From a virus, in the IMG/VR virus record IMGVR_UViG_3300030406_004542, positions 1 through 36,990 of that record: a DNA stretch of 36,990 nucleotides; one strand, given 5' to 3'. Position 1 is the first letter of the stretch; each line of letters begins with the position of its first letter. Below the pieces are notes generated by a model, which saw only the letters and a program-made list of their open reading frames with translations, did not search any database and was not told the origin of the DNA. The position numbers and the translations under genes were made by a program. Shown in pieces: positions 486 through 33,202 of this stretch.

Positions 486-833
486 TTATCCTTTGCTGAA
501 TGGTATTAGCTTGTTGAGGAACTTCCTACGTGCGTTGCAGTTGCACTCTTTAAGCTGGAGCACTTGTTTGAATCGCTCTTCCGTAATCCCGATCTTGTTT
601 AACGTTGCATGTATCAGGTCACCTAGACCTTCAATCTTGTTCAGGTCAGAGTCGAGGGTAACACCTGCGTTACCGAGTTCATCGACCAGTCTCTGGCCAT
701 CTTGTTTAATGTCTGCATTGTTAGCCACTTGCTCTGTCTGATTTCGAAACTGAGCTTGCAGCCTAGCAACTTGCTCTTCGTCTGGTTTGAGATGCTTGCG
801 TCTCATCTCTTCGATGTATGCTTCGTTCCCCAT
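486..833 (-). CDS. Hypothetical small helical protein (115 aa)
   Basis: Mostly helical and charged, with heptad-like stretches in the first half (EEMRRKHLKPDEEQVARLQAQFRNQTEQV). The C-terminal part has CNC at about residues 95-97, followed by a basic tail (ARRKFLNKLIPFSKG). Its ATG lies 7 nt after the stop of the cysteine-rich tail protein and is preceded by AGGATTGAT. There is no membrane segment. The last 25 residues look like a helical peptide with a conserved-looking Cys pair. The position downstream of the tail-tip genes suggests an accessory virion or assembly protein, but I do not recognise the family. Confidence 0.75.
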   Translation of the reverse strand: MGNEAYIEEMRRKHLKPDEEQVARLQAQFRNQTEQVANNADIKQDGQRLVDELGNAGVTLDSDLNKIEGLGDLIHATLNKIGITEERFKQVLQLKECNCNARRKFLNKLIPFSKG

Positions 834-840
834 ATCAATC

Positions 841-2358
841 CTATGGTGGGCATGTTGTTGGAGTAATGGTTACGTCAGATATACTGTGCTTCACTCGACA
901 GTGAAACTCTTCCGCTCTTGTTGTTGGAAAGGACATTGTTGCAGGATCGGTAAACGTGCATTGAGCACTGCCGTATGCTAAGTTCGCGCAACTCCAACCA
1001 GACACTGGTCCTGACTGATAGCCAGCCGATGCACTCAATGGTTTAAGCGGGTTTGATGAAACTGCACCGGAAGTCCAGATCTGACCAATTGGAAAACTGT
1101 TCTGGCTCATCCATGTATAATTAGCAATAACAAACCCATCGAACAAGAAGTCAGCCGCCAAGAAGAACTTGCTATCGGTAAACGGATAGCCTACTCCGTC
1201 AAACACTTGCCATATGTCGGGACAGGAGCATGAGTATCCTTTGGTATCCCAACAATCAGGGCAGTTTGAGCTTTTTCTCAAAAACCTAAACACGGGTGAT
1301 GTTGCTTCAAGAACATTTAATTGGTATCTAATTGAAACGCCACCAAACGCAGGGTCTGTTGACTGCAAAAAGAATGACTTGGCCCACCAGCATGGAACAA
1401 AATCTCCCGATGTGTCATCTGTTGCTTGCAGAATAAACGAATCCATGTTACTGCATGGCAACCCAGGATACCCAGCGGTAGGAGTTGGGTCTGGTACTGC
1501 GCCCGTTGTTGGATCGTAGTCAGTGTTGTGCCAGCCGGTGGCAAAATTAACCTCAATGCAATTGACGAAGGTTGGATCTGTCGTTGGGGTGCAGGGAGAT
1601 GTGGTTGGGCTAACAGGGTTAAACTGCCACCAGCACGCACATCCAGCCTCTCCTCCGCAGTCTACACCAAGACTATTTCTGTATTTGGTTACTGGTTCTA
1701 GCGTCATTCGAATATCTGAAAAGTCCAAGATGACATTGCCGTCATCGCACAATACTTGATTCAAATGCTGAAACTTGTAAGTCGTTGCAGGGTCAACAAA
1801 GCAAAGTCTTGTTCCACTGCTATTGGCTTCATCTATCCCTAGATCGCATCGCTCGCTGTCAATCTCTTGTTCAGCTACTGCAAACCACTCTTCGTAAGTT
1901 TGCGAGGCGTTACCTGCAACTAGTGGGGACACCTTAATCCGAACAGCGTACTGCCAACCGCACATCTGGCAGATGCCATTATTACCAAAGTCGTTATCAG
2001 TGCATGGAACCTGGCAGTTTGCCTGTGGGTAAATCGTTACGTCAATTTCGACAATCGTTGTATTACTTGTGGAGCATGGATCACAAGAGTAGGGGGGCGC
2101 AACTGGAGTGGAGCTTGGAGGTATAGAGATTGCTACACCATCCTGAATGACAATTACCTTGTTGCCCTTGCAAGATCCTGTAGTGTTCTGGCTAATGCTG
2201 ATAGGAACCTGCAAACCTGTAAACAAGTCATGCGGTATTAGCGAAGAACTGGAGCATTTAAAGGGAGGCACGCCGTCTAACTGAACTGTTATTCCACAAG
2301 GAAAGCAATCACAGAAAGAACAGTCAGCACCACCACAACAACATGGATACCAACCCAT
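841..2358 (-). CDS. Cysteine-rich distal tail or adsorption protein (505 aa)
   Basis: I count 33 cysteines in 505 residues, seven of them in the first 21 (the N-terminus begins MGWYPCCCGG). More pairs occur at SCDPC, NCQVPC, CQMC, CACWW, NCPDCW and SCSC. The spacing is irregular, unlike a tandem zinc ribbon, and the protein is rich in T, S, P and aromatic residues, as in extracellular beta-structured adhesins. There is no signal peptide. It is translationally coupled to the Gly-rich gene upstream (TAATG overlap). Position after tape measure and two other distal tail genes suggests a tail-tip or host-recognition role. Disulfides would form only after release, or the cysteines bind metal. Role inferred; the reading frame is certain. 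Confidence 0.8.
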   Translation of the reverse strand: MGWYPCCCGGADCSFCDCFPCGITVQLDGVPPFKCSSSSLIPHDLFTGLQVPISISQNTTGSCKGNKVIVIQDGVAISIPPSSTPVAPPYSCDPCSTSNTTIVEIDVTIYPQANCQVPCTDNDFGNNGICQMCGWQYAVRIKVSPLVAGNASQTYEEWFAVAEQEIDSERCDLGIDEANSSGTRLCFVDPATTYKFQHLNQVLCDDGNVILDFSDIRMTLEPVTKYRNSLGVDCGGEAGCACWWQFNPVSPTTSPCTPTTDPTFVNCIEVNFATGWHNTDYDPTTGAVPDPTPTAGYPGLPCSNMDSFILQATDDTSGDFVPCWWAKSFFLQSTDPAFGGVSIRYQLNVLEATSPVFRFLRKSSNCPDCWDTKGYSCSCPDIWQVFDGVGYPFTDSKFFLAADFLFDGFVIANYTWMSQNSFPIGQIWTSGAVSSNPLKPLSASAGYQSGPVSGWSCANLAYGSAQCTFTDPATMSFPTTRAEEFHCRVKHSISDVTITPTTCPP

Positions 2359-3077
2359 TACGGAGTTCCTCCACCACCTGGAGAACCTCCTCCACCTCCT
2401 CCACCACTTCCACCACTTCCACCACCGCCGTCACCTCCACCGTCACCGTCACCACCATCATCTCCACCGCCAGTGGTGTCAGGGCATTCGATCTGGATGA
2501 TTCGGTAGTTGGTTGTCTCGTCCCACATGGCCAGTCCAGCGTCACCGCTATTTCCCTCAAACACGAAAGTACCAGCAGATGACGTTTCCAAGTTATGCAC
2601 TGTAATGCCACCGGAAGCTGTTGTGTTGTCTACGCCAGGACCATACTGATTGGTGATGGTTGCGGTCTGTGATGCGTCAGATGTCGTCAAGGCAGAGTTG
2701 AGGGTAAACCTAACGAGCGATCTAACCTCATTGATTCCCTGACCTATACACCATTTACCACCTTGGAAATTAGCAATTACCTCCATCCCTATTTCTAGGT
2801 CAATCTTCATTAGATTGTGGACGGTTATCTCTGGCAGTGTATTCCCAGTAATGCTGCTAACATTTGACCAACCCGTAGTGTTCAGGTTTACCCTTTGTGC
2901 CTTGCCCTTGTTGGGGAATGATGCTCCATTCCATGCTGATATTACTTCTTTTATTTCGCATGGATAAAAGTAGACCGCGGTTGGCTTTCGATTTGTCGGT
3001 GTATATTCATCCCCACCAACCATTGCAGCTAACGCTTTGGCGGTTTTAGCATCGCTGAATCCGTATGCTTTAGGCAT
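2358..3077 (-). CDS. Tail protein with glycine-rich C-terminal tail (239 aa)
   Basis: Residues 1 to about 200 form a normal mixed-composition domain that starts MPKAYGFSDAKTAKALAAMVGG. The last 35-40 residues are nearly all Gly, Asp, Ser and Pro, a flexible linker-like tail. The segment from residue 50 on (ISAWNGASFPNKGKAQRVNL) resembles phage proteins of unknown function that are often coded near tail tips; that match is from memory and weak. The SD (AGGAATAAAA) lies inside the end of the previous gene, and the stop overlaps the next ATG. The Gly tail makes the opposite strand an artefactual Thr/Ser-rich ORF. Probably a minor structural protein whose tail joins or spaces it from the Cys-rich partner. 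Confidence 0.75.
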   Translation of the reverse strand: MPKAYGFSDAKTAKALAAMVGGDEYTPTNRKPTAVYFYPCEIKEVISAWNGASFPNKGKAQRVNLNTTGWSNVSSITGNTLPEITVHNLMKIDLEIGMEVIANFQGGKWCIGQGINEVRSLVRFTLNSALTTSDASQTATITNQYGPGVDNTTASGGITVHNLETSSAGTFVFEGNSGDAGLAMWDETTNYRIIQIECPDTTGGGDDGGDGDGGGDGGGGSGGSGGGGGGGSPGGGGTP

Positions 3078-3079
3078 TT

Positions 3080-4270
3080 TTATTCCTCAATACCTAGACG
3101 ACCCAAGGCGGCAATATGGTTATGCATAAAGTATGGAGGCTCAAAGATATACCAATGCAAAACACCGGGATACACCTTTGGAAGGTAGTTTCCTTCTCCG
3201 TCAAGTGGAACCCTCTGTGGTTGATCAGCATCATCGTAGAGAACTTCTTGATTAGAGTTGCCATTGTAACCACCAGGATAATACCAATCGCCCTCATCGT
3301 AGAAACCAGCCCTAAATCCACCGACCTTGAACGTTGTGTCGAACTGAATACTCAACTCAAAGTACTGCTGGTCTTGCCAGTATTTTTCTGATACTGAAAG
3401 GTCGCTGTACCTTACCTGTAAAGGATTGTACTTAAAATTTAAAATTGGCATCCTCAACGTTCGTTCGTTCATTCCACCAACGTAATTAGTCCAAGTCATT
3501 GAATTTAAAGAGCCAGGTAACACTGCTTTTGTGCATGAGTATTGCAGCTTAGGCATGTCGCGTTTGTAATTGGTTATCAATTGACCGTTTGAAACCTGGA
3601 ATGGGTGTCCTCCAACGGGGTAACCTCTAGGGCCAATATTTAGTTTTCCAGATGTATTGAAAGCGTTCATGACGGCGGTGCCGGTGTTTGTTGTTACAGC
3701 ACTCCAGTCATTTGCAAAATATTGATTGAAGCCTCCAGTAAATCCACAATACCAAGCGATCCCAGGACTGACGGCCTCGGTGGTTGTTTGCACTTGCCAT
3801 TCAGCGGCCTTTAACCATGGTGCTTTATCACCGTCATCTTCTTTACCTTCCGGTTCATCGGGTAGGTGTTCATATTCGGGGTCATCTTGGTCCCGTATTG
3901 GCAGTAGTGGGTCTAGTGGCTCGGGCGGTTCCCCCCTACTACCTTGAGGGCTACTCTTACCAGAGCTACTAGAACTCTTAAACTTCTTAATATCAGTCGT
4001 CCATCCCACAGTTACCGTGTACAAACCTTCAGCACTGGAGGACTCAGCAAACTCACGACTTTCGCAAATCCACGTTATATCGCCAGATACTTCTCTTTGG
4101 CCAACGTAGGGCAAACCTGGTGCAGTACCGACATACCCCTCTTCGGTGCATGGGTCATCAAGTTTGATTAACCATGTTTGAGTGTAGTTCTGCACTCTTC
4201 TTGGTGGAGTACCTTCAAGACTAACAGAGATAGAACTCTGGTGAGTCCGACCTAGATTTGTTATTGGCAT
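3080..4270 (-). CDS. Probable distal tail protein (396 aa)
   Basis: It starts at an ATG overlapping the tape-measure stop (TAATG). Residues 1-90 look like a compact beta domain. Residues about 95-150 are a low-complexity acidic, Pro/Ser-rich hinge (SSSSSGKSS, then EPPEPLDPL and DEPEGKEDDGDK). Residues 155-396 form a second domain rich in Tyr, Trp, Asn and Gly (WYCGFTGGFNQYF, DEGDWYYPGGYNG). The first gene after the tape measure usually codes the distal tail or hub protein, so that role is likely. I do not see a family signature that would prove it. The two-domain architecture with an acidic linker is the notable feature. Confidence 0.75.
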   Translation of the reverse strand: MPITNLGRTHQSSISVSLEGTPPRRVQNYTQTWLIKLDDPCTEEGYVGTAPGLPYVGQREVSGDITWICESREFAESSSAEGLYTVTVGWTTDIKKFKSSSSSGKSSPQGSRGEPPEPLDPLLPIRDQDDPEYEHLPDEPEGKEDDGDKAPWLKAAEWQVQTTTEAVSPGIAWYCGFTGGFNQYFANDWSAVTTNTGTAVMNAFNTSGKLNIGPRGYPVGGHPFQVSNGQLITNYKRDMPKLQYSCTKAVLPGSLNSMTWTNYVGGMNERTLRMPILNFKYNPLQVRYSDLSVSEKYWQDQQYFELSIQFDTTFKVGGFRAGFYDEGDWYYPGGYNGNSNQEVLYDDADQPQRVPLDGEGNYLPKVYPGVLHWYIFEPPYFMHNHIAALGRLGIEE

Positions 4271-5739
4271 TAGTACGTCTCGATTTGAATTTGATCTCTT
4301 GTGTTTCTTTCAATACGATCAAGGGTTCTTGCCATCTGTGCGGCACGCCTGTTTTCTTCAAACTTTTGCTCAGAAGCAAATCCATCGAACTGAATCGCTT
4401 GACCCCGAAAACTTTCTAAATGTTGCTTAATCTTTTTGACGTTGCTTTCAACACCACCCGTGTTTTCTTCTAGCCTTTTAGATTCTTCTCTAGCACGCTC
4501 AATTTCAGTTTTTGTATTGCTCCAAGCGTTCCATACTTTTGCTGAGTTCGAAACAATGCTTCCAGTTGAATCTTTAATTTCACCAATAATTGCTCCGGTG
4601 TCGGAAACGGTGCTGCTTAAAACTGACCAACTGCCTGATGTCAATGCTGTAGAAAAATCCATTAAAGAATCTGCAAACATTGAAATGTCATTGCCAAGAG
4701 CACCAAAGCTAATCGCCTTTATCAATTCACCAAACACCTTAAGAAGGCCAGCAGCAACTGTTGAGGCAGTACCGGCAGCCAATGTAAAAGCCGCAACACC
4801 ACCGGCTGCAACTCGCAAGCCTGCTGCAAATGCAAGCACTCCAACAGTTAAGGCTCCTGTGAGTACGGTCATTTGGTCAATACCAATGTTTGCTTCCATT
4901 AGTCCCGAGAACATTTTCTCAAAATCCATTTCTTTAAGAGCATGCGCAGCGGCAATCATGGCCAGCGTAAATACCCTTATGATGTCAGTAAACTGAGCAA
5001 AGAACTCTGCTTGTGCTATATTCCCCGTCTCTCCAAGTAATGCCAGAAGATCTTTAATTTCGACCAGTCCAGATACAGCACCCTCGCTAAGTTCTCCAGT
5101 GAGGATGGATACATTCCGTGTAAGTTGCTGGATTCCCTCCGATCCCTGGTTAAGGAATGGCAGCAATCGCATGCCACCTTCACCAAAGATCTTCATCGCC
5201 AATGCACCTTTCTCTGCGGGTTCAGAGAATTTGTTTAGTTCATCTGCAATTATGCCAATTTGCTGGAGTCCTGTTTTACCTTCGAGGTCACGAACGGACA
5301 GGCCAAGTTGACGGAATGCTTCTTTTGCTTCACCAGTACCCATAGCAAGCATACCGATGTTGCGTTGCATTGAGGCGAAGCCGGTTTGCAATTGTTCAAA
5401 CTCGACACCTGCCATCTTGGTTGCAATCGACAATTGCTGAAACTCTTGGACGGTCAAGCCTAATCGCTTAGATGCTTTGTCTAGTTGATCCATAGCATCA
5501 ACGGTAGACATCAATGCACCTGCAAACTTATTGATATTCCGTTGAATGATATTAATAGCTACCAGTGCGGCCAGTGCTCCTCTGGCCATCTTTGTAGCTT
5601 TCGCCATGACAGAGGTGTTTTTAGCGGTCTTGCGCATACTCTTGTCTAGACGACCAAGATCAGCAACCGCTTTGTTAATTCCTTTAATCTCAGCTAGGAT
5701 CATAGCCTGTCCAGCTATGATGTTGTTGGCTGCACTCAT
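4270..5739 (-). CDS. Tape measure protein
   Basis: 489 residues of mostly alpha-helical, Ala/Leu-rich sequence, with an N-terminal helical region (ILAEIKGINKAVADLGRLDKSMRKT) and the typical tape-measure passage FQQLSIATKMAGVEFEQLQTGFASMQRNI followed by FREL/FGEGGMRLLPFL-like text. Hydrophobic helices occur at about 55-68 and at 290-335 (GALTVGVLAFAAGLRVAAGG). The length is short; at roughly 0.15 nm per residue, tail length would be near 70 nm. The start codon overlaps the previous stop (ATGA). The C-terminal 100 residues form a coiled coil. The family is well known to set tail length and to be ejected with the DNA. Confidence 0.93.
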   Translation of the reverse strand: MSAANNIIAGQAMILAEIKGINKAVADLGRLDKSMRKTAKNTSVMAKATKMARGALAALVAINIIQRNINKFAGALMSTVDAMDQLDKASKRLGLTVQEFQQLSIATKMAGVEFEQLQTGFASMQRNIGMLAMGTGEAKEAFRQLGLSVRDLEGKTGLQQIGIIADELNKFSEPAEKGALAMKIFGEGGMRLLPFLNQGSEGIQQLTRNVSILTGELSEGAVSGLVEIKDLLALLGETGNIAQAEFFAQFTDIIRVFTLAMIAAAHALKEMDFEKMFSGLMEANIGIDQMTVLTGALTVGVLAFAAGLRVAAGGVAAFTLAAGTASTVAAGLLKVFGELIKAISFGALGNDISMFADSLMDFSTALTSGSWSVLSSTVSDTGAIIGEIKDSTGSIVSNSAKVWNAWSNTKTEIERAREESKRLEENTGGVESNVKKIKQHLESFRGQAIQFDGFASEQKFEENRRAAQMARTLDRIERNTRDQIQIETY

Positions 5740-7187: not shown

Positions 7188-7645
7188 TACGGAACCTCAT
7201 ACCAGGTTGGAGGTGCGTGAGCACCTGAGTTTGCAGTATTTACCACTGGCCTCAAAGATACATCGACATTAAGTGCTTCGCCAAGTGACTCATTCCGAGT
7301 AAAGGAACGAACCATCATGACTGCTCGCAAACCTTCGTTGCCACTCGTTGTGATGTCACCATCCATGACTGCAAGTTCAACATTGGTCTTGTTGAAGAAG
7401 GCATCCTGGAAAGCAGTGAACGCTGCATCGTCATTATCGTAGAGCATCTTGAACTCTACGCCTGCATCGATCAAACCATTGAGGTAGTCCCTAAATCCTC
7501 CAGAGCAGCGGCGAGTAACTTCTACTTCACTTTGCTCCAATGAGAGAGTCAGGTCCATTACGTTGCAGATTTCAACCCATGTCGGGGAAGCATACGTCCC
7601 CGTATTGCGATAGAGCTTGGCATCTTCAGCCAAAATAGCTGCCAT
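7187..7645 (-). CDS. Major tail tube protein
   Basis: 152 residues; opens MAAILAEDAKLYRNTGTYASPTWVEICNVMDLTLSLEQSEVEVT, the typical siphovirus tail-tube start in which a 'sample/parameter' strand is followed by the T-R substitution motif (EVTRRCSGGFRDYLNG). This is followed by a loop and strands ending in VDVSLRPV. Position after the tail terminator and before the chaperone agrees. The ATG overlaps the preceding stop (TAATG) with AAAGGAA upstream. The product polymerises as hexameric rings around the tape measure. The C-terminal tail (NTANSGAHAPPTWYEVP) is Pro-rich and probably exposed. Confidence 0.88.
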   Translation of the reverse strand: MAAILAEDAKLYRNTGTYASPTWVEICNVMDLTLSLEQSEVEVTRRCSGGFRDYLNGLIDAGVEFKMLYDNDDAAFTAFQDAFFNKTNVELAVMDGDITTSGNEGLRAVMMVRSFTRNESLGEALNVDVSLRPVVNTANSGAHAPPTWYEVP

Positions 7646-8471: not shown

Positions 8472-8481
8472 AAATCACCTA

Positions 8482-9411
8482 TTAGGTAATTGCAGTTTCG
8501 TTTTGTGCCAGACTTTCCACGGTGATAATTTCCGTGTTGAATGCCGTAGCAGGGAACGGGGCTGGAGCACCAGTTGGGTTCGTGGCAGTCCGGCTCTGTT
8601 GGAGACGATGCTGTTGTGCTCGACCCGCAACGATCATGTTTGGCTTCTGATCCACGGGGAACAGTGCCATTGCTTGTGCAATAAGATCGTCAGTCAGGCT
8701 GTTGCTTGAAGCATCCTCTAGGTTGGCGATACGGCAAACAGAGAGGTCATGACCTCGCTTGAGTCCGCAGTAGCCGCCGATCATGTGAGAGTAAGCCTTG
8801 AAGGACTGCTGGTTCGTTCCATCGGGACGATCAACAATCTGGCGAGGACCAACAGTGAATTCACCACCGCGGCCCCAAACAATTTCAACACCTTGCTCAC
8901 CAGCGTGAAGCAGGTAGACGCTAGAAACATCTGAACCCGATCCACCACCGTCAATGACCATGGTATCGGCCAGAGCATTCAAGTTGGCAAGGTCTTCAAA
9001 GCCATCAAAGCCAGCACCGATGTTGTTGGTGCCTCGCAGGATTTGCTCTTCGACTTCTCGCATAGCTTGACGCAAGTGGCCAACCGCTTCAACCAAGATG
9101 GCGTGATCCGCACCCCGTTGGTCAGTATCAGCAACAGCAACGTCAACCCAGAACGAAGCATCAAGATACTTCAGGGTCACAACGATTTGTTCGTATGTTC
9201 CCCGAGTTCCTTCGATACCCGCATTGGTAGCCCTAAATCCGACCGAAGGGTTAGCGGTCTTGTTCGTGTACTTGAACAAGTCACTCGTTGCAGTCTTCGC
9301 AGGAAGAGCAGCAAGGAAGGGAGCGGAGTCCAATACTTCGGAAAGCATTGCGTCCATATCGACGTTGTTGAACGTCAGGACATCGGAAGTTCTTAAGTTG
9401 GCATCAGCCAT
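8482..9411 (-). CDS. Major capsid protein
   Basis: 309 residues; it has the strongest ribosome site of the region (AAGGAGA, 6 nt before ATG), as expected for the most abundant protein. The sequence has features of the HK97 fold: N-terminal arm, a helix with ILVEAVGHLRQAMREVEEQILRGTN (spine-helix like, residues about 105-130), a P-domain with strand SSVYLLHAGEQGVEIVWGRGGEFTVG and a C-terminal A-domain ending FPATAFNTEIITVESLAQNETAIT. It directly follows the protease/scaffold gene. No cleavage site can be fixed by eye; the short N-terminal arm suggests that the scaffold is supplied in trans by the upstream gene. Confidence 0.85.
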   Translation of the reverse strand: MADANLRTSDVLTFNNVDMDAMLSEVLDSAPFLAALPAKTATSDLFKYTNKTANPSVGFRATNAGIEGTRGTYEQIVVTLKYLDASFWVDVAVADTDQRGADHAILVEAVGHLRQAMREVEEQILRGTNNIGAGFDGFEDLANLNALADTMVIDGGGSGSDVSSVYLLHAGEQGVEIVWGRGGEFTVGPRQIVDRPDGTNQQSFKAYSHMIGGYCGLKRGHDLSVCRIANLEDASSNSLTDDLIAQAMALFPVDQKPNMIVAGRAQQHRLQQSRTATNPTGAPAPFPATAFNTEIITVESLAQNETAIT

Positions 9412-12382: not shown

Positions 12383-12394
12383 TGGAGTACCCCC

Positions 12395-19666: not shown

Positions 19667-19669
19667 GCC

Positions 19670-23412: not shown

Positions 23413-23701
23413 TATCTTTAATCACCCTACGAATGGTGAACTCAATGATTTTCCAAACTGCTTCATCCACCGCGGGCTCGATCAGGAGATTAGGTACTCC
23501 AGGTATGTCGATTGGGCGGATAACCTTGTCGTAGAATGTTTTGACGGTGGCAACAACTTCATCTTCTGGAATGTCAATATCGCCAATCATATTGGCAACA
23601 ACATCAGTGACCCAGTCAATGATCTGGCCACGTTTCCACCGCTTAAATGGCTGATTAGCTGATGCAAGTTCTAGTGACGCAAGTAGTTCAGTCCGACCCA
23701 T
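23396..23701 (-). CDS. Hypothetical helical protein at head of lysis block (101 aa)
   Basis: Good SD (CAGGAGAATATC). Soluble, helical, with a conserved-looking region WKRGQIIDWVTDVVANMIGDIDIPEDEVVATVKTFYDKVIRPIDIPGVPNLLIEPAVDEAVWKII. No signal or membrane segment, no recognised motif. It is the first gene downstream of the TATAAT/inverted repeat element at 23722-23742, so it may be the first gene of a separately controlled lysis transcript. Confidence 0.65.
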   Translation of the reverse strand: MGRTELLASLELASANQPFKRWKRGQIIDWVTDVVANMIGDIDIPEDEVVATVKTFYDKVIRPIDIPGVPNLLIEPAVDEAVWKIIEFTIRRVIKDNDSAT

Positions 23702-23769: not shown

Positions 23770-24108
23770 CTAATCTTCAATTTGCATAGAGTTTATAGCT
23801 TTTAGAAGACTGGGCAAATTAGATAGTTCCATAACTAATACCCAATCTTTTCCATTTTGCCGAGTCAGAACCAATGGTGTTTTACCGTTGGCGTCTTCCT
23901 TAGCCTGGTTGAGCGCAGGCCACATCTGGAAGCGTTCGGTACGTTTCACCTCAATATGGGTGTCAGGAATGTCTGTAACGACATCTGGGCTATCTGGACC
24001 GCCCTGAAACTGTACTCCGCGGCGAGCACTACACTGGAGCACGTCGGCTAAGACCTTGGCAGCTTCCCTCTCGCCACGCTTACCCTTCTGCTTTGACATC
24101 CTGCCCAC
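23770..24108 (-). CDS. PDDEXK nuclease, Holliday-junction-resolvase-like
   Basis: 112 residues. GTG at 24108 is preferred because GGAGG lies 6 nt upstream (an in-frame ATG is three codons later). Motifs of the archaeal Hjc/phage nuclease group: GERE near residues 12-15, a basic patch SARRGVQFQ, then D in SPDVV, E-V-K in HIEVKRTERF and a following LNQAKEDA helix. Such small resolvases trim branched DNA before packaging. It overlaps the methyltransferase end by 29 nt. A restriction-type partner of the methyltransferase is another possibility, but the sequence is closer to resolvases. Confidence 0.78.
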   Translation of the reverse strand: MGRMSKQKGKRGEREAAKVLADVLQCSARRGVQFQGGPDSPDVVTDIPDTHIEVKRTERFQMWPALNQAKEDANGKTPLVLTRQNGKDWVLVMELSNLPSLLKAINSMQIED

Positions 24109-24856
24109 AATGCACCTCCCACAATATCTGACCGACTACATGAGCAACTTGAGGAACAACTGCGTTGCCTAAGCATCTAAGTCGGTCCACCCGTCTGGAA
24201 ACCCCATGAACCATTCGATCCAACGGGGGTTCAACTGACCACCAGTCCACTCCTGATCGACCTTCCTGCCCTCTTGCTCCATAAGGACGGTAGTCAGAGA
24301 TTTTTGAGTTCCGCAAGCGTTGGCATGTCTCGCCTGCCAACCCAGTCTCGGTTCGTGCGCTACTACGGTAGGCAAGTATGAAGATTCGGTCCCTGATATG
24401 CGGGGCACCAACTGCGGCAGCTGATATGCAGTGCCACTGGCAGTCATACCCGATCTCGGCCATTGTTCCGAGAACATCTCCCATTCCCCGATTAAGCAAC
24501 GCTGTAACGTTCTCCATGATGACGTACTCTGGTCGTACCAAGCTAACGACTCTGGCGAGTTGGTAGAACAATCTTGAGTTTTTGCCATCTAATCCCTCTT
24601 TCGTTCCAGCCGAACTGATATCGGTGCATGGAAATCCACCACAAATTACATCACATCCCCAATCGTCATCGGTTGGAAACGTACAAACGTCGTCATGCCT
24701 TCTGACATCAGGCCAGTGTTTTGCTAAGACTTTGCGAGCATAGTCATCAATCTCAACCTGCCAGACTGTTTCATAATGACCAGTGCTCTCTAAGCCCAAC
24801 TCCAATCCCCCAATGCCAGCAAACAACGATCCCACTCGAAGTTTACCCATCCCCAT
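24080..24856 (-). CDS. DNA (cytosine-5) methyltransferase
   Basis: I choose the ATG at 24856 (GGAAGG about 5-7 nt upstream). Motifs of the C5 class: AdoMet-binding FAGIGGLELGLE at the start, catalytic PC in GGFPCTDISSAG, ENV in YVIMENVTALL, RDRIF after GAPHI and the GNAVVPQV of motif X. The total is about 258 residues, short for the class, because the target-recognition part between RDRIF and motif IX is small. The WSVEPPLDRMVHGVSRRVDRLR segment is typical of phage C5 methyltransferases. No endonuclease partner is beside it, so it is more likely a solitary enzyme that protects phage DNA from host restriction than half of a restriction system. Sequence specificity cannot be told. Confidence 0.93.
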   Translation of the reverse strand: MGMGKLRVGSLFAGIGGLELGLESTGHYETVWQVEIDDYARKVLAKHWPDVRRHDDVCTFPTDDDWGCDVICGGFPCTDISSAGTKEGLDGKNSRLFYQLARVVSLVRPEYVIMENVTALLNRGMGDVLGTMAEIGYDCQWHCISAAAVGAPHIRDRIFILAYRSSARTETGLAGETCQRLRNSKISDYRPYGARGQEGRSGVDWWSVEPPLDRMVHGVSRRVDRLRCLGNAVVPQVAHVVGQILWEVHCGQDVKAEG

Positions 24857-25073
24857 TATCACCTTCCGCTAATACTTCTCCGATAAACTTGCAACGTCCA
24901 CAATTCCCACATGTATTTCCAGCGATAGACATATAGCATGGATTAGCCACCGCATGTCTTAACTTCTTCACCTGATCCTGCATCTGCTTTACTTGTTCAC
25001 GCAACCTCTGTATTTCAGCTATATTTTCAGCATATTCTTCTATGTGTTTTTCCAACGCCTTAACGTAATCCAT
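24843..25073 (-). CDS. Small coiled-coil protein with Cys cluster (76 aa)
   Basis: The ATG at 25073 is chosen because GAGGG lies 6 nt before it; an ATG four codons upstream is that SD itself. The product has a coiled coil (ALEKHIEEYAENIAEIQRLREQVKQMQDQVKKLRHAV) followed by a C-terminal cluster CYMSIAGNTCGNCGRCKF, four cysteines that could bind zinc. It overlaps the methyltransferase start. Upstream is a terminator, so transcription comes from read-through or from an unseen promoter. Function unknown; a DNA-binding or assembly adaptor role is plausible. Confidence 0.65.
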   Translation of the reverse strand: MDYVKALEKHIEEYAENIAEIQRLREQVKQMQDQVKKLRHAVANPCYMSIAGNTCGNCGRCKFIGEVLAEGDNGDG

Positions 25074-25169: not shown

Positions 25170-25589
25170 TCAGTTGCCTGTTGACCCGAAGCCACTGTCG
25201 CCTCTGACAGATACTCCAGGGAATTCGTCTACTTCGATCATTTGGCACAACAAGTGTTCCTGCAACACCAGTTGAGCGATCTTGTCGCCTGCCGATATGA
25301 CCTTTGTCATATCGCCGTGATTTATGATCAAAACGCCCACTTCGCCGTGATAGCCCGAGTCAATGACTCCAGCCAGGATATCTACGCCCCAGTCCTTTGC
25401 TAATCCGCTGCGAGGCCAGATAAGCCCTACGTGACCCTGCGGGATATCAATAGCTATCCCAGTCTTAATAAGGCGTCTCCTCCCCTGAGCCAGTATAACC
25501 GTCTCTACGGCCCTCAAATCCCATCCTGCGTCGAATGTATGGCCCTTTGTAGGCGTGTACGCATCCTCACGTAGCTTTTTGAATTTCAT
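25170..25589 (-). CDS. dut: dUTP diphosphatase (dUTPase)
   Basis: 139 residues with all five trimeric dUTPase motifs in order: DAGWDL (20-26), PRSGLA (59-64), the central AGVIDSGYHGEVGVLIIN with catalytic Asp, GDKIAQLVL, and the C-terminal RGDSGFGSTGN. It hydrolyses dUTP to dUMP, lowering uracil incorporation and supplying dTMP precursor. It is the first minus-strand gene, flanked by terminators on both sides (25602-25645 upstream and 25096-25118 downstream). The SD is weak (GGTGCAGG just before ATG). Length and motifs are normal. Confidence 0.96.
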   Translation of the reverse strand: MKFKKLREDAYTPTKGHTFDAGWDLRAVETVILAQGRRRLIKTGIAIDIPQGHVGLIWPRSGLAKDWGVDILAGVIDSGYHGEVGVLIINHGDMTKVISAGDKIAQLVLQEHLLCQMIEVDEFPGVSVRGDSGFGSTGN

Positions 25590-25809: not shown

Positions 25810-25839
25810 TTGACAATCTGCAAACTGGAGTACTTAATA
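25810..25839 (+). promoter_or_regulatory. Candidate promoter, rightward
   Basis: TTGACA at 25810-25815 and TTAATA at 25834-25839 with an 18-nt spacer. A CTGGAGTAC word (25825-25833) lies inside the spacer. It points into the early operon. The start is 370 nt before the first plus-strand gene, so the leader is long; the nearer candidate at 26155 may be the main one. Confidence 0.45.
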
Positions 25840-25877: not shown

Positions 25878-26154
25878 GCAGGTAGTCAATATTTTGTTCG
25901 AAATAGTCACTGGAGAATGCGAGGTGGTGCTCTCGGCTGCCGCCGTAAGTCTTTTTAAGCCTTCGGCTTAGGTGCTCCAGGAAAGAAGACGCTGTCGCGT
26001 GCTGCAATCCGAAAAAAGTATCTTAGTTTGCTCGCTTGGTTCATACGTTTAGATGCTAGCCTTTTAGGTGTATTCGTAACCCCTTGTTGTTAAACGACTT
26101 ACGACCGCAGTAAAAAACATCGCGTTTTTCTCGAAAAAAAGCTGCACTACTAGA

Positions 26155-26550: not shown

Positions 26551-26560
26551 CCCATCGTCT

Positions 26561-26611: not shown

Positions 26612-26626
26612 TCACTGGAGGGTGTT

Positions 26627-26776
26627 ATGGCTATTAAGGCGTTGACGCGCGAAGAGCTTGAGCAATTGGCCAAGTTGTTGGGTATTGAGATCCCACCATT
26701 GCTAGTCAAGCTCAAGATCGAAATCGATGAGGATGGTTTGGTGAAATACGAATTGGAGGGTTACGGAGAACGATGA
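26627..26776 (+). CDS. Small protein (49 aa) ahead of the exonuclease
   Basis: The ATG follows CTGGAGGGTGTT, a good SD. The product MAIKALTREELEQLAKLLGIEIPPLLVKLKIEIDEDGLVKYELEGYGER begins with a helix and ends in strands; its stop overlaps the ATG of the exonuclease (ATGA). The tight coupling and codon use like its neighbours make it a real gene despite its size. Possibly a partner or inhibitor of the exonuclease, not shown. Confidence 0.7.
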   Translation: MAIKALTREELEQLAKLLGIEIPPLLVKLKIEIDEDGLVKYELEGYGER

Positions 26777-27570
26777 TCATTCGAGACTATTACCTGGATG
26801 TCAAAGACGACGAGTATTACTCGTCCTATGACGAATACTGTAGTGCAAGCAGGTTGCACGATTTTAAATCTATGGGGCCATCAAAGTTTCATGCGTTGGT
26901 CAGCGGCGAGGTAGAAAAGCCAAAGAGTAAAGCACTGATCTTTGGGTCAGCGTTTCATACCAGAGTGCTCGAGGGCAGTAATGTTTTTCATGAGCGATTT
27001 TTGGAAACGGAGCCGCCTGTCAATCCTAAAACTGGAGAACCCTATAAGACTGGCAAAAAGGTTCAAGAGTGGCTCGAGTCGTCACCAGAAGGTGTTGAGT
27101 ACATCACTTTAGAAGAGTCTGCACGCATTTCAGAAATGAACTTCGCTATTCGCAATCATGAATATGCTTCAGTTCTTCTGTCCGATGGTGATCCTGAGAT
27201 CGTATTGCGTCAGTCGATGTACGGTGTCGAGTGCCAATCCAAAATGGATTACCTCAAACCAGTGGGTAGGCAACTGATTGACCTTAAGACGACTCAAAGT
27301 CTTGACACATTCCCTGACTGGATTGAGCGTAAGTATCTCTTTCAGATGGCGTTTTACAGGATGATGATCAAGGGAATTACTGGCCATACCTGGAATGTCA
27401 GTTTGGTGGCCATTGAAAAAGAACCACCCTACGAGATCGGCATTTGGGAACTGACAGATGACAGTCTGATCGAAGCGACTGCCGATGTGATCGCGCAGTT
27501 GCAATACTATCGCTATTGCCGTGACAAGGACATTTGGCCAGGCAAGTATCCAGAGGTGAACCGGATATGA
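26773..27570 (+). CDS. RecE-like (exonuclease VIII family, DUF3799) nuclease
   Basis: 265 residues with the PDDEXK layout of the RecE/DUF3799 group: SASRLHDFKSMGPSKFHALV near residue 28, then ALIFGSAFHTRVLE (catalytic-region His), EC-QSKMDYL, and ID-LKTTQSLDTF (the D..K T segment of the active site), then YLFQMAFYRMMI, the Q-x-x-x-Y core motif. It would resect dsDNA ends 5'-3' to give single strands for the Sak4-like protein and ssDNA-binding protein coded just downstream. It overlaps both neighbours by 4 nt. Confidence 0.88.
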   Translation: MIIRDYYLDVKDDEYYSSYDEYCSASRLHDFKSMGPSKFHALVSGEVEKPKSKALIFGSAFHTRVLEGSNVFHERFLETEPPVNPKTGEPYKTGKKVQEWLESSPEGVEYITLEESARISEMNFAIRNHEYASVLLSDGDPEIVLRQSMYGVECQSKMDYLKPVGRQLIDLKTTQSLDTFPDWIERKYLFQMAFYRMMIKGITGHTWNVSLVAIEKEPPYEIGIWELTDDSLIEATADVIAQLQYYRYCRDKDIWPGKYPEVNRI

Positions 27571-27815
27571 AGTCAGAGTACGAAGAGTTTGGTGTTGACA
27601 CTAGTGATTCAGTCAATAGGCCAAGACATTACACAAACCATCCTTCAGGGATCGAGTGTATTCAGATTACAGAGCACATGTCATTCAACATTGGCAATGC
27701 AATCAAATACCTTTGGAGGTGCGACCTGAAGCATGATGCACTGGAGGACTTAAAGAAGGCGAGGTATTACGTTGACAGAGAAATCAAACGTCGCACTGGC
27801 GAGGCAGAAGGTTAA
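27567..27815 (+). CDS. DUF3310 family protein
   Basis: 82 residues from the ATG at 27567 (ATGA overlap with the exonuclease stop). It shows the DUF3310 signature: NRPRHYTNHPSGIECIQITEHMSFNIGNAIKYLWRCDLKHDALEDLKKARYYVDREIKRR, with the conserved HY, GNAIKY-x-x-R and DL-KA-x-YY. This group is common in phages next to replication genes; some members are described as nucleotide kinase-like, but the function is not proven. A 44-nt overlap with the next gene follows. Confidence 0.9.
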   Translation: MKSEYEEFGVDTSDSVNRPRHYTNHPSGIECIQITEHMSFNIGNAIKYLWRCDLKHDALEDLKKARYYVDREIKRRTGEAEG

Positions 27816-27981
27816 TGAATTGCTGAGTCGTGAAAATCGACGCATTAGGCAGATGAAGGGTTGTGGCCCTCAGTGGCGGTACTTCAGTCCTGAGCAGGTA
27901 AAGGATCTGAGGATTCAATACGCCGAAAAGTTTCGTGATGACCTAAGAGATGTTTTATTGCTTTTACGTAGGGAGAGATGA
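27772..27981 (+). CDS. Hypothetical protein (69 aa), TTG start
   Basis: The first ATG in frame lies at 27853, so the gene starts either at TTG 27772, inside the preceding gene, or internally. The product is basic and helical (EKSNVALARQKVNELLSRENRRIRQMKGCGPQWRYFSPEQVKDLRIQYAEKFRDDLRDVLLLLRRER). Its stop overlaps the ATG of the ATPase, which supports translation here. Function unknown; the charge suggests nucleic-acid or partner binding. Confidence 0.55.
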   Translation: MTEKSNVALARQKVNELLSRENRRIRQMKGCGPQWRYFSPEQVKDLRIQYAEKFRDDLRDVLLLLRRER

Positions 27982-28733
27982 TGGGACTAAACATCAAAAA
28001 GGGACGACAGAAGACCCCACGAAGGACGCTGGTGTACGGTACTCCAGGCGTGGGTAAATCGACGTTTGCAGCAGGTGCTGTCAATCCGTTGTTCATTCCA
28101 GTGGAGGATGGAATCGATGACATTGACGTTGATCGCGTCAACAAAATTGTTGATGTAGATCAGATGATGCAAGTGTTGAGAGATGTAGTGAGTGACGAGC
28201 ATGATTACAAGACTTTGGTCATTGACAGTCTGTCAGCACTGGAGACTTTGATTCATGCAAAGGTATGCAAGAAGTACGATGTAGACAGTATCGAAGTTGC
28301 AGGTGGTGGTTACGGTAAAGGGTACGTGGAAGCACTCAACGACTTTATCAGTATCCTAAATGCACTGGAGTACATCCGACTTGAGAAGGACATGAACATT
28401 GTCTTGATTTCTCACGATACTGTTGAACTCGATCCTTCACCTTCAACAAACAGTTTTCAGAAGTACTACCCGCGACTTCACAAAAGGGCCAGACAAAAGA
28501 TTACGGAGTGGTGCGATGAGGTGCTGTTCGCCTACTTCCAAGTCTTCACTGCTCAGGAAGATCAAGGGTTTAGCAAGAAGGTTACGAAGGCAAAAGGATC
28601 TCAGCGTATGCTCTTGTGCGATGGTGCGAAGGGATGGGCAGAGGCAAAGAATCGTTTAGGTATGCCAGAGCAAATTGAAATGGCTTGGCAGGAATATCAA
28701 AAGTTTATTGACGGAGTAAGTGCAAATGGGTGA
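27981..28733 (+). CDS. Sak4-like RecA-fold ATPase (single-strand annealing/recombinase)
   Basis: About 250 residues with Walker A GTPGVGKST (near 20-28), Walker B in KTLVIDSLSALE and sensor-like NIVLISHDTVELD. A conserved region YYPRLHKRARQKITEWCDEVLFAYF follows. This is the AAA_24/Sak4 type found in many phages; it needs an SSB partner, and a DUF669 ssDNA-binding protein is coded immediately after. Start is ATG 27981 (or ATG 27978 that overlaps the previous stop); GGGAGAG precedes it. The RecE-like exonuclease two genes upstream completes the recombination set. Confidence 0.88.
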   Translation: MGLNIKKGRQKTPRRTLVYGTPGVGKSTFAAGAVNPLFIPVEDGIDDIDVDRVNKIVDVDQMMQVLRDVVSDEHDYKTLVIDSLSALETLIHAKVCKKYDVDSIEVAGGGYGKGYVEALNDFISILNALEYIRLEKDMNIVLISHDTVELDPSPSTNSFQKYYPRLHKRARQKITEWCDEVLFAYFQVFTAQEDQGFSKKVTKAKGSQRMLLCDGAKGWAEAKNRLGMPEQIEMAWQEYQKFIDGVSANG

Positions 28734-29160
28734 TTTATCAGCTTTTCAATTCGATGCAAATCAGTGGAACGACGAGCCAGCAGCTTTTGTCCAAATACCG
28801 GACGGTGAATACAATTGCGTTGTGCAGTCAGCAGAGGTGGAAGAGAATGCAAAAGGGACTCTTGTCACGCTTGTGATTCAGATCATTGACTCTGGAGAAT
28901 ACATCAACAGAACGACGAAGATGTGGATCTACTTAGCGGGGCATGCAAATGCGAAATATCAAGAGAGGTGCTCGATTCAGTTTGCTGCGCTATGCAAGGC
29001 GGTGGGAGTATTTAATCCTCAAGACACTACTGAGATTGTAGCTAAACCATTCCTGTGCGACTTGAAGACCAAGAAGACCGATGACGGCTCATCGTTCACC
29101 GAAGTCCGAAACTTTCGCAGGTCAACTGTAAAGGCAGAAACGGAGCAAGCACCGTTCTGA
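28726..29160 (+). CDS. DUF669-like ssDNA-binding protein
   Basis: 144 residues from ATG 28726 (a GTG two codons earlier is less suitable). It has the DUF669 look: N-terminal FQFDANQWNDEPAAFVQIPDGEYNCVV, a beta-barrel core with LVTLVIQIIDSGEYINRTTKMWIYL and a C-terminal acidic tail ending AETEQAPF. The final PF tip after acidic residues recalls the interaction tail of bacterial SSB. DUF669 proteins work with Sak4-type ATPases in phage recombination. It overlaps the preceding gene by 8 nt and abuts the next (TGATG). Confidence 0.82.
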   Translation: MGDLSAFQFDANQWNDEPAAFVQIPDGEYNCVVQSAEVEENAKGTLVTLVIQIIDSGEYINRTTKMWIYLAGHANAKYQERCSIQFAALCKAVGVFNPQDTTEIVAKPFLCDLKTKKTDDGSSFTEVRNFRRSTVKAETEQAPF

Positions 29161-29582
29161 TGCTACTGATGGAAGACCGATGGATCGACTCTAGAGCAAG
29201 GAAGCTCGCTTATATATGGCGGGAACCAGTCGAGGATTGCAAGCAGATGCTTGCCCTAGAACTGCTTCAGGGGCGATTGCATCAACAGGCTTTCCTGAAG
29301 GTATGGGCCAAACTTAGGAGGCAGGCTGCAAAGCGTGGCTGCGAATTACTGGAGCACCCTACACAGGGGACGAGCAGTCTGTCTCTCGAGTGGCTCGATT
29401 TTTTAGAAGAGGTGTTGAACGAGAAGGAGCAATGGTGCGTCATGATGCGTCTGAACAATATCAAGTGGGAGGACATCGGTGAAGCACTGAATTGCTCTGG
29501 CAGGACTTGTCAGAGAATACATGAAACAGCAATCAAAAAATTAAGGAGAAGACTTGATGCTGAAGATGGATCGAATCGATGA
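29160..29582 (+). CDS. Sigma-70-region-4-like regulator
   Basis: 140 residues; the C-terminal third has a helix-turn-helix of the sigma region-4 type: LNEKEQWCVMMRLNNIKWEDIGEALNCSGRTCQRIHETAIKKLRRRL (about residues 87-132). N-terminal region (WREPVEDCKQMLALELLQGRLHQQAFLKVWAKLRRQAAKRGCELL) is helical. It lacks a region 2, so it is a small sigma-like or late activator protein. Stop and start overlap at TGATG. A candidate for switching transcription to the long minus operon. Confidence 0.75.
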   Translation: MLLMEDRWIDSRARKLAYIWREPVEDCKQMLALELLQGRLHQQAFLKVWAKLRRQAAKRGCELLEHPTQGTSSLSLEWLDFLEEVLNEKEQWCVMMRLNNIKWEDIGEALNCSGRTCQRIHETAIKKLRRRLDAEDGSNR

Positions 29583-30191: not shown

Positions 30192-30193
30192 CT

Positions 30194-30889
30194 ATGCGAA
30201 TTGGAATTGTTTCGGATCTGCACCTACCCTTCGACCACCCTGGCTACTTGCACTTCGTTATGGACACATTCGATCAGTGGCAAGTAGAACACGTACACTT
30301 CATTGGTGATGTGGTTGAACATCATCGTCTGAGCCAATGGGAAGATAATCCCGAAGGACATTCTGCCGAACGGGAAGCGGAGCTTGCCCAAGAATGCGTA
30401 CACCGATGGACTAAGGTATGGCCAGAGGCAACGGTTTCAATCGGCAACCATGACAATCGCCACTATCGCAAAGCCAGGTCAGTTGGTGTCCCTGATCGAT
30501 ACTGCAAAACATACAAGGATGTTTGGAATACTCCAGATTGGGATTGGCAGGACAGCCACATATTCGATGGAGTACTCTACGAACACGGGACAGGATCGTC
30601 AGGTAAGAACGGTGCAATTAATCGGGCAATCAATAAGCGAATGTCCGTTGTCATAGGCCATACCCATGCGTGGGGTGGCGTTGTTTATCACAGTAACGAT
30701 ACAAGCAGGATATTTGCGCTGAATGTTGGATGTGGGATCGACATCAGTGCTTATTGTTTTGCTTATGGTGCGTCGATGCCAAACAGACCAACTCTCGGTT
30801 GTGGTGTCGTCATTGATGGTTGGTTCGGAACGTTTGAACCAATGAGGTGCGGTCAAGGTGAGAAGTATCACAGGAGTAATTTTGAATGA
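30194..30889 (+). CDS. Calcineurin-like metallophosphoesterase
   Basis: 231 residues with the metal-binding motifs in order: SDLHLPF (7-13), GDVVEHH, GNHDN (about 88-92), HGTG and GHTHAWGG (about 155-162). The group includes phosphodiesterases and phosphatases; in phages they are often described as DNA or nucleotide phosphatases, but the substrate is unknown. The ATG lies 2 nt after the preceding stop and the stop overlaps the primase-polymerase ATG. Confidence 0.9.
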   Translation: MRIGIVSDLHLPFDHPGYLHFVMDTFDQWQVEHVHFIGDVVEHHRLSQWEDNPEGHSAEREAELAQECVHRWTKVWPEATVSIGNHDNRHYRKARSVGVPDRYCKTYKDVWNTPDWDWQDSHIFDGVLYEHGTGSSGKNGAINRAINKRMSVVIGHTHAWGGVVYHSNDTSRIFALNVGCGIDISAYCFAYGASMPNRPTLGCGVVIDGWFGTFEPMRCGQGEKYHRSNFE

Positions 30890-33030
30890 AGATTCCCGTT
30901 GAATTGATGGAGAGGGACCAATGGGTATTGTGGAAATACGAGGACAAAGGAGATGGCAATAAAAGCAAGATTCCTTATCGAATCGATGGGCAAAGGGCGA
31001 GTAGTGTTGACCCAACGCACTGGAGCAGTTTTCTCGATGTTTGGCAAGAATACCGTAAGGGATCTTGGTCTGGTGTTGGTTTTGTTTTTTCTGAGTCAGA
31101 TGACTATTGTGGGTTTGATTTTGACAACTGCCTGGTTGATGGGAAGCTGAAACCTTGGGCAAAGCCTATCGTTAATACCTTAAGCACCTACACCGAGATC
31201 AGTCCGTCAGGGACGGGCGTTAAGTGTATCGCTCGTTGTGCCGTTCAGGGCATGCGAGGCCGAAGGCTTAGAGTCGATGATGGCCAGATTGAGATCTACA
31301 CCCAAGGTCGTTACTTTACGATCACAGGTGATGTTCTCGGTGAAGGCACAATCAGAGACGCTACGCTCGAAGCTAAGAAGCTGATCAATACTCAAAAGAC
31401 TGCCTATCAACCGCCGAAGCCTACTGTCAACAAGAGAAGGCCAGACAACTGGGAGGAACGCGCTCAGAAGTACGTCGAGAAATATCCGCCAGCGATTAGC
31501 GGTTTTAGCGGTCATGACATGACGTTTCGCCTAGTCTGTGTTTTGATCAATGGTTTTATGGCAGACCCCGAAGAAGCAATGCTACTTCTCGAAGATTGGA
31601 ACAACCGATGTGATCCTCCATGGGAGGACAAAGATCTGGAGCACAAGATCGAGCAGGCAACGCAGGCAGGTCAACGCGAGGCAGTCTTTGGCTACATGTA
31701 CGAAGATGAGCCGGAAGTTGTTGTAGACGACTCAGAGTATGAGGTTGAGTTGGAAGGCATCATGCAGAAGATGTCGATTGAGTCCAGCCCCATGCCTAGT
31801 GAAGTTTTCCAAGTGCCAGGATTCATCGGTCAACTGATGAAGTACATCGATTCACAAAATCCGAGAGACAATCCGAGGCTTTCACTTATTGCCGCCATTG
31901 CATTTCAGGCAACACTTGCCGGTCGAAAGATCATGGACGAGTCAGGTACTCGGACCAATCTGTTTATCGTAGGTATCGCACCAAGTGGTGGTGGTAAGCA
32001 GGCACCACAGGATTGCATCAAACGTATCTCTTACTTCGCTGGTTGCGATCATATGATTCAGCCGAAGGTAACAGGTGATACGGCCATTGCACGCTGTCTA
32101 GATCGCTCTCCTAGCGTTTTACTGAATATGGATGAGTATGGACATTACCTGCGGCAGATAGGCGCAGGGAAGACATCCGGTAGTGATAGCGTCAACTCTA
32201 CGTTACTCAGCCTGTGGAACGTGCAAACGCATTGGTCACCTAAAGCCATGGCCAACAATGAATCGAACATCACCATTGAACAGCCATGTCTGTCGTTTGT
32301 TGGCTGGACAGTGCCTCACAACTTTTGGGAAAACCTCGATGAGACATTCTTGGATGATGGGTTCTGTGCTCGCCTCTTAGTGTTAGATACTGGACCTGTT
32401 GCTAAGCTAAAGAGAATCTTTTCGGATGATCCACCTGGAGAACTCATTGACCTGGCTCAACAATGGGTAGAGTTTAAAAGCGGTGAAGGCAACCTAGCGT
32501 TCAAGTATCCTAAGCCACTGCGAGTACCAGTGACTGATGATGCGGAGAAGGTGTTTGCTAGGCTTAGTGAGCAGTCTGATGCGATTGAGGTGGAGCCCAA
32601 ACGAAGTGTCTACAGTCGGGCTAGCGAGAAGGCTAGGAAGTTGTCGTTGATCTATGCTGCGAGTCGAGACATCAATAATATTGTTGTTGACCAAGAGGCT
32701 GCAAACTGGGCAGACATACTCGTACGCTGGAGCACTGATTCCTTTTGGACTCGCGTCCAGTCAGGCGTTGGGGCCAGTTCTAAGATCAATAGGATCTGCG
32801 ATAAGGTGCTTAAGTTCATCACGGAGAAGGAAGCAGAGGGTAAGCGTGTTCTACGGTCGAACATGATGCAGCAACTGAGGATCGAATCCTATGACATGAA
32901 TAAGGTTCGAGATACCTTGCTGGATCGAGATCAAATCGAGTGCGATAAGATCAAACAACCTAGCGGTCGTCCCGCGGAAGTGTATCGGAAGAGGTCACCT
33001 GGGGGTACACAGACTAGGAAGATAGACTAA
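30886..33030 (+). CDS. Primase-polymerase/helicase-like replication protein (DUF3987)
   Basis: 714 residues in three parts. Residues 1-165: primase-polymerase-like, with the acidic pair in GFDFDNC (76-82), SPSGTGVKC (106-114) and IEIYTQGRYFTITG (135-148), as in phage PrimPol enzymes such as the NrS-1 type. Residues 205-262: PriCT-like helical domain. Residues 310-714: DUF3987 helicase-like ATPase with P-loop-like IAPSGGGKQ (364-372) and LLNMDEYG (412-419). The last residues are basic (RKRSPGGTQTRKID). The P-loop has GK followed by Q, not the usual T/S. It is the only polymerase-like gene seen, so the phage may otherwise use host polymerase. Confidence 0.9.
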   Translation: MKIPVELMERDQWVLWKYEDKGDGNKSKIPYRIDGQRASSVDPTHWSSFLDVWQEYRKGSWSGVGFVFSESDDYCGFDFDNCLVDGKLKPWAKPIVNTLSTYTEISPSGTGVKCIARCAVQGMRGRRLRVDDGQIEIYTQGRYFTITGDVLGEGTIRDATLEAKKLINTQKTAYQPPKPTVNKRRPDNWEERAQKYVEKYPPAISGFSGHDMTFRLVCVLINGFMADPEEAMLLLEDWNNRCDPPWEDKDLEHKIEQATQAGQREAVFGYMYEDEPEVVVDDSEYEVELEGIMQKMSIESSPMPSEVFQVPGFIGQLMKYIDSQNPRDNPRLSLIAAIAFQATLAGRKIMDESGTRTNLFIVGIAPSGGGKQAPQDCIKRISYFAGCDHMIQPKVTGDTAIARCLDRSPSVLLNMDEYGHYLRQIGAGKTSGSDSVNSTLLSLWNVQTHWSPKAMANNESNITIEQPCLSFVGWTVPHNFWENLDETFLDDGFCARLLVLDTGPVAKLKRIFSDDPPGELIDLAQQWVEFKSGEGNLAFKYPKPLRVPVTDDAEKVFARLSEQSDAIEVEPKRSVYSRASEKARKLSLIYAASRDINNIVVDQEAANWADILVRWSTDSFWTRVQSGVGASSKINRICDKVLKFITEKEAEGKRVLRSNMMQQLRIESYDMNKVRDTLLDRDQIECDKIKQPSGRPAEVYRKRSPGGTQTRKID

Positions 33031-33202
33031 AATGAGAACATGCCCCTAGGGGGGTAGTTGGTGTGAGCGGCAGGACTCGTTGTTCTGCTGCTGGTGCTCC
33101 AGTAAGTATTGGTTTTAGGTTTTGGCCCGTATTTGCTGGAGTATTTTTATGCGCAGGCGGCAAGCCGATTTTAAACAATACCCCCCCCCTCTACTCGATA
33201 CG

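Follow-up and report, generated by a model that had tools for sequence, protein, structure and literature searches.

The word CTGGAGNAC occurs 34 times (22 copies on the forward and 12 on the reverse strand, by exact match on both) between positions 376 and 33102 of a tailed-phage contig from an IMG/VR virus record, whose 36,990 bases are hereafter called the window. This excess is real, and it recurs in diverged relatives. With its core CTGGAGNAY, the word would be a short asymmetric DNA address that selection maintains in a phage clade at a density of about one per kilobase. We regard a Chi-like site, serving a nuclease or recombinase of an unsampled host beside the exonuclease, Sak4 and SSB of the phage, as the best reading, though a tentative one.

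Excess and shape of the word

The number of copies predicted for the window is 1.1 by a second-order and 1.3 by a third-order Markov model, while orders 4 and 5 predict 3.3 and 10, the last value being high because order-5 counts already hold the CTGGAG core, or most of the word. Within genes, 30 copies stand against 1.63 ± 1.18 (maximum 5) in 300 codon-preserving shuffles, which keep the proteins and the codon usage, and repeating the shuffles with automatic ORFs gave 31 copies against 1.5 (z = 25). In an unbiased Markov scan of the 8-mers and gapped 8-mers of the window, CTGGAGNAC ranks first by a wide margin (z 28.8); under a codon-aware null that also counts dispersion, its z is about 20, while the top words of other phages usually reach 7-12. 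The density is 0.92/kb, the ratio of observed to expected is above 20, and the gaps between copies are Poisson-like (mean 991, SD 942). The original prediction of an over-represented word had named a third-order Markov or codon-aware count as its refutation, and the excess survives both. Its expectation of about one copy also holds, whereas its tally of 33 missed the reverse-strand copy at 376-384.

CTGGAG itself occurs 64 times in the window and is followed by NAC in 34 cases (53%) and by NAY in 46 (72%). These figures replace an earlier estimate of roughly 56 copies, some 60% of them followed by NAC, of which the strong NAC excess stands. Inside genes, CTGGAG is found 58 times against 20.5 in the codon shuffles (60 against 20 with automatic ORFs). 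The 18 copies that lack NAY are about as many as the shuffles predict, hence it is CTGGAGNAY that is in excess and not CTGGAG as such. The word is also sharply bounded: 23 of its 24 one-base variants occur 0-3 times, which is the chance level, and only CTGGAGNAT is raised (n = 12). Other words that are common in a relative lack such sharpness, their neighbours being common too. A pyrimidine follows 31 of the 34 copies and an A precedes 17, while a G precedes CTGGAG in only 5. The sequence itself is asymmetric, with one free position, and not palindromic. Another word, CGCGCG, is over-represented across the window as well (24 against 3.3, Markov order 3).

All reading frames contain copies; 16 run in the sense and 14 in the antisense direction of their genes, and 4 lie in non-coding DNA. 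An RNA signal or a protein repeat is thereby excluded, and it is the DNA duplex that is read. The four non-coding copies and the variety of coded residues, both reported earlier from inspection by eye, were confirmed, and a protein motif is ruled out by the spread over frames and strands together with the persistence of the excess after codon-preserving shuffles. In contrast, the proposed two-thirds bias towards the forward strand (22:12) is not significant and was dropped, as relatives do not have it in common (9:9, 9:5, 5:9 and 6:9). The right end of the window (33103-36990) contains no CTGGAGNAC and two NAT variants only, and its ORFs are mostly without family; it is possibly a recently acquired block.

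Table 1. Positions in the window of the genes discussed and of all copies of CTGGAGNAC and CTGGAGNAT.
Feature	Position	Strand	Match	Remark
RecE/exonuclease VIII-type exonuclease	26773..27570	+		DUF3799, PHROG 412; phage recombination
Sak4-like annealing/recombinase ATPase	27978..28733	+		AAA_24, PHROG 124
single-strand DNA-binding protein (SSB)	28720..29160	+		
C5-cytosine DNA methyltransferase	24080..24862	-		considered as cause of the word, set aside
terminase large subunit	12395..14449	-		used for phage tree
CTGGAGNAC	376..384	-	exact	
CTGGAGNAC	555..563	+	exact	
CTGGAGNAC	2378..2386	+	exact	within Gly/Pro-rich coding stretch
CTGGAGNAC	4035..4043	+	exact	
CTGGAGNAC	5091..5099	-	exact	
CTGGAGNAC	8562..8570	+	exact	
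CTGGAGNAC	9592..9600	+	exact	
CTGGAGNAC	10471..10479	+	exact	
CTGGAGNAC	10766..10774	+	exact	
CTGGAGNAC	11030..11038	-	exact	
CTGGAGNAC	12382..12390	+	exact	between genes, non-coding
CTGGAGNAC	13034..13042	-	exact	
CTGGAGNAC	13451..13459	-	exact	
CTGGAGNAC	14234..14242	+	exact	
CTGGAGNAC	14643..14651	-	exact	
CTGGAGNAC	14685..14693	+	exact	
CTGGAGNAC	17609..17617	+	exact	
CTGGAGNAC	21509..21517	-	exact	
CTGGAGNAC	21773..21781	+	exact	
CTGGAGNAC	22449..22457	+	exact	
CTGGAGNAC	22868..22876	-	exact	
CTGGAGNAC	23494..23502	-	exact	
CTGGAGNAC	24034..24042	+	exact	
CTGGAGNAC	25825..25833	+	exact	divergent intergenic region, non-coding
CTGGAGNAC	25972..25980	-	exact	divergent intergenic region, non-coding
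CTGGAGNAC	27032..27040	+	exact	
CTGGAGNAC	27741..27749	+	exact	
CTGGAGNAC	28039..28047	-	exact	
CTGGAGNAC	28365..28373	+	exact	
CTGGAGNAC	29349..29357	+	exact	
CTGGAGNAC	31636..31644	+	exact	
CTGGAGNAC	32435..32443	+	exact	
CTGGAGNAC	32727..32735	+	exact	
CTGGAGNAC	33094..33102	-	exact	between genes, non-coding
variant CTGGAGNAT	205..213	-		
variant CTGGAGNAT	2249..2257	+		
variant CTGGAGNAT	7495..7503	-		
variant CTGGAGNAT	11179..11187	-		
variant CTGGAGNAT	16189..16197	-		
variant CTGGAGNAT	22769..22777	-		
variant CTGGAGNAT	25211..25219	-		
variant CTGGAGNAT	25910..25918	+		intergenic
variant CTGGAGNAT	28892..28900	+		
variant CTGGAGNAT	30528..30536	-		
variant CTGGAGNAT	33136..33144	+		
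variant CTGGAGNAT	36589..36597	+		

Gene content and probable host

In addition to the genes in Table 1, the window encodes portal, capsid, tail and tape measure proteins, a primase, a dUTPase and a RusA-like resolvase, as well as sigma-region-4-like and helix-turn-helix proteins at 29160-29931. PHROG scans, in which many small ORFs of the window are without family, recognised no integrase, repressor or nuclease inhibitor. The window contains no tRNAs and no Rfam match, and Megablast of positions 1-25000 against named phages returned no match. Relatives of the terminase were found in prophages of Planctomycetota and Lentisphaerota, and relatives of the capsid in 9 of 392 Planctomycetota genomes; from these homologues we infer a host that is probably of planctomycete type.

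Three consecutive large virion-type proteins (16086-21100) share a motif at their C-terminal ends (RLG/FTRLG/FTRLE) that may be a tag for sorting or assembly; inspection by eye points to LamG-like domains in the first of them. A GP88-family protein with no assigned function (34901-35755; PF17338, PHROG 1617) is of a type found in mycobacteriophages.

Recurrence in related phages

Relatives were gathered from IMG/VR by searches with terminase, portal, capsid and primase, and their ORFs were called mechanically; G595, G596, G006 and G009 are partial contigs. At least four diverged relatives (G004/G005, G006, G595 and G596) also carry CTGGAGNAC repeatedly, and in them the terminase is about 50% identical and GC is 55-60%; across the phages sharing the word, GC ranges from 47 to 60%. 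Against codon-aware expectations, there are 18 copies versus 0.7 in G008, which is 96% identical to the window, 14 versus 2.2 in G004 and 14 versus 1.6 in G005, and on the partial contigs 13 versus 2.4 in G006, 11 versus 1.4 in L356 (part of G595) and 14 versus 1.3 in L363 (part of G596), with z at least 7.7 in all six. In the diverged relatives the word is looser, CTGGAGN(A/N)C(C), and in G004-G006 it reads CTGGAGNNC(C). By the same codon-aware count, G597 (L357) is not enriched (1 versus 1.9), and L358, L046, L059, L080 and L082 are at chance too; no outer group has the word in excess. Going by the sample numbers, G597 is probably marine and the other relatives are probably freshwater or estuarine. 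A maximum-likelihood terminase tree places the enriched phages together with the unenriched G597 in a single supported nine-member group, hence the word must have been gained once and lost once, or else gained twice.

Between G004 and G005 (85% identical), 24 of 31 CTGGAGNNC sites are intact, while composition-matched words are intact in 42% of cases (p about 1e-4). Between G004 and G006 (71%), only 4 of 12-18 site positions are common and yet both are enriched, which implies that site positions turn over while the density is kept. The window and G008 share 16 of 17 sites intact versus 86% (p = 0.33), a pair too similar to discriminate. In the comparisons made, several of them with partial contigs, no gene unique to the enriched phages was able to explain the word.

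Other words in G597 were considered and rejected: the dense CTGTGTNAA is a tandem repeat within one gene, and TGATGGGG, TGGCTTTG and GCCAGGG are frequent but so are their neighbours. Close-pair scans of IMG/VR, of low sensitivity (about 0.4 pairs per window-like phage genome), gave no new dispersed case among the matches listed, and the many-copy cases among these were runs in collagen-like genes. Such (Gly-X-Y) genes with CCTGGAGNACC runs, as in L138, L174, L200, L127 and similar IMG/VR loci, are a trap for word searches. CTGGAG is nearly absent from the outer relative L046 (1 in 22 kb versus 12.5 expected in genes) and absent from 18 kb of the outer relative L047, the opposite of the window.

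Search of PVC genomes

The counts of CTGGAGNAC covered 294 genomes of Planctomycetota, 170 from the order with the nearest prophages, a further class and 195 from the Verrucomicrobiota/Lentisphaerota phylum, an estimated total, after overlap, of about 620 different PVC genomes. None is rich in the word: the maximum is 0.23/kb versus 0.92/kb in the phage, and in that genome the reversed control word reaches nearly the same frequency. The suggestion that the word is common in the host genome is therefore unsupported in these genomes, for a host known by homology only. Genomes that stood out when the word was set against its reverse (G224, G093, G256, G129, G585, G562 and G463) showed no strong Markov enrichment and an excess that is not NAC-specific; the high-ratio genomes sampled did not exceed about 1.7 times what the Markov model predicts. 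An apparent strand polarity (G114, G370, G096 and G075, seemingly forward only over hundreds of kb) was likewise rejected: it came from copies being ordered by strand, and 400-kb stretches of G114 and of G370 gave 14:12 and 20:21, with no skew.

Two Planctomycetota genomes, G041 and G165, almost lack the word (a single copy in the 2.6 Mb of G041 and two in the 2.4 Mb of G165, versus 60 and 56 for controls), which suggests strong avoidance, perhaps due to a CTGGAG-type restriction system. The prophage region of G033 (L466-L468) carries a one-orientation, promoter- or stoperator-like repeat, TGTGGTAGGTTGC, with 9 copies in 20 kb (e.g., L467:7733-19423), as well as a dispersed palindrome, CTCGCGAG.

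Possible readers of the word

If the word is Chi-like, a host end-processing nuclease or recombinase of the RecBCD/AddAB class would otherwise digest linear phage DNA. On reading the word, this enzyme would stop degrading and free a strand for repair or recombination, and a phage with no detectable nuclease inhibitor would profit from many copies in both orientations. That a nuclease reads the word and that the host carries it are what we infer under this reading. It is favoured because of the excess, the sharpness, the strand neutrality, the recurrence, the conservation in one pair and the turnover of positions at a kept density, and because the window encodes an exonuclease, Sak4 and SSB with no Gam-like match. 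The CTGGAG core is also present in the Proteobacteria Chi GCTGGAGG and in the Haemophilus site G(G/C)TGGAGG (PMC8022716), and E. coli phages with a recombinase and without a RecBCD inhibitor over-represent Chi (PMC3784561). However, Chi in E. coli phages has a density of about 0.2/kb and an observed to expected ratio of 2-3 (PMC3784561), which the window far exceeds, and the outliers among the PVC genomes vanish under Markov models. In addition, RecC is scarce (16 of 79 Planctomycetota) and was not found in G203 or G033, the carriers of the nearest prophages, and the word matches none of the known Chi sequences, with a G before CTGGAG so rarely. The features of the word are typical of a site recognised by a DNA-processing enzyme, and the Chi-like site fits best among the three options originally offered, despite its density and the lack of an enriched PVC genome. 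Because the word is missing in G597 despite the same core gene set, a host-side reader is slightly favoured over a phage-encoded one. If Chi-like, the word is a handle for finding the host, as a genome enriched in CTGGAGNAC, and to our knowledge no such site has been proposed before in phages of the Planctomycetes group, nor would any phage make denser use of one.

Its main rival is an as yet unrecognised factor, encoded by phage or host. In its general form, which is possible but doubtful, a phage-clade-specific address, selected at one copy per kilobase for as long as terminases took to diverge by 50%, would be read by a phage or host factor and would not be a copy of a host word; such an address would represent a dispersed phage signal of a new type. 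The specific version in which a clade-specific phage protein (a repressor binding stoperators, or a genome-compacting or replication protein) binds the word is unlikely: the word follows the phage clade, no sampled host genome is dense in it, and the sigma-region-4-like and helix-turn-helix proteins offer candidates, but these two lack homologues in the enriched G004-G006. Moreover, the tabulated genes that the window shares with G004-G006 all have counterparts in the unenriched G597, bar small structural ORFs, the PHROG scans gave no integrase or repressor family, and the copies sit inside genes with no orientation relative to transcription. Alternatively, the word could serve as a mark on host DNA in some other role, such as uptake or a genome-wide word, with the phage having drifted to host content; this would agree with the sharing of the word by phages of differing GC and with a density near one per kilobase, like that of uptake sequences and HIP1 (HIP1 reviewed in PMC4390886). 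We consider this decidedly unlikely, given the low maximum in the PVC genomes and a word that, unlike HIP1, is not palindromic.

Biased repair or modification could also generate the word with no selected function, by a methylation-linked ratchet as proposed for the palindromic HIP words (PMC4390886), and the window does encode a C5 methyltransferase. Such a ratchet should leave abundant one-base intermediates, whereas only CTGGAGNAT is raised; the enriched G004-G006 (G006 being partial) lack a homologue of the methyltransferase, and the sites outlast composition-matched words in one pair (G004/G005), which makes this origin very improbable. A restriction-linked word, as once suggested, is also unlikely, since a target should be depleted and CTGGAG is in excess, since the methyltransferase lacks homologues in the enriched relatives compared, and since CTGGAGNAY is selected and not the type II target CTGGAG. 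Finally, the word might be a coding or compositional artefact of repeated Leu-Glu codons or collagen-like repeats. Collagen-like genes do yield CCTGGAGNACC runs in unrelated viral contigs, but for the window such an artefact has a negligible probability and is refuted by the spread over frames and strands and by the codon-preserving shuffles.

Comparison with known systems

The type IIG restriction enzymes GsuI and BpmI recognise CTGGAG. The same six bases are contained in the window word, but only CTGGAGNAY is in excess, and restriction targets should be avoided. The DNA uptake sequences of Neisseria and Pasteurellaceae are asymmetric and occur at about one copy per kilobase; they are words of host genomes, whereas no host dense in CTGGAGNAC was found among the PVC genomes searched. 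Cluster A mycobacteriophages carry about 30 copies per genome of an asymmetric site, the stoperator (PMC9283540, PMC6550527). The window word resembles stoperators in copy number and in being an asymmetric site dispersed over one phage genome. Stoperators, however, follow the direction of transcription and depend on an immunity repressor, whereas the window word is unoriented and mostly within genes; the layout of oriented sites in short intergenic gaps is not seen in its copies, and PHROG scans, with many small ORFs lacking a family, were blank for an immunity repressor and lysogeny module.

HIP1 of cyanobacteria is palindromic, found in host genomes and tied to methyltransferases (PMC4390886). 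Like HIP1, the window word is a dense genome-wide octamer that lies in coding DNA in many frames; unlike HIP1, it is asymmetric and so far confined to phages, and the C5 methyltransferase of the window is not conserved with it in the comparison with G004-G006 (G006 partial). From Chi sites, the window word differs as another octamer with a free position, a four-fold higher density and no host excess found in the PVC genomes counted, but it shares with them the nature of a short, asymmetric and over-represented word, strand-specific by nature and built on a CTGGAG core.
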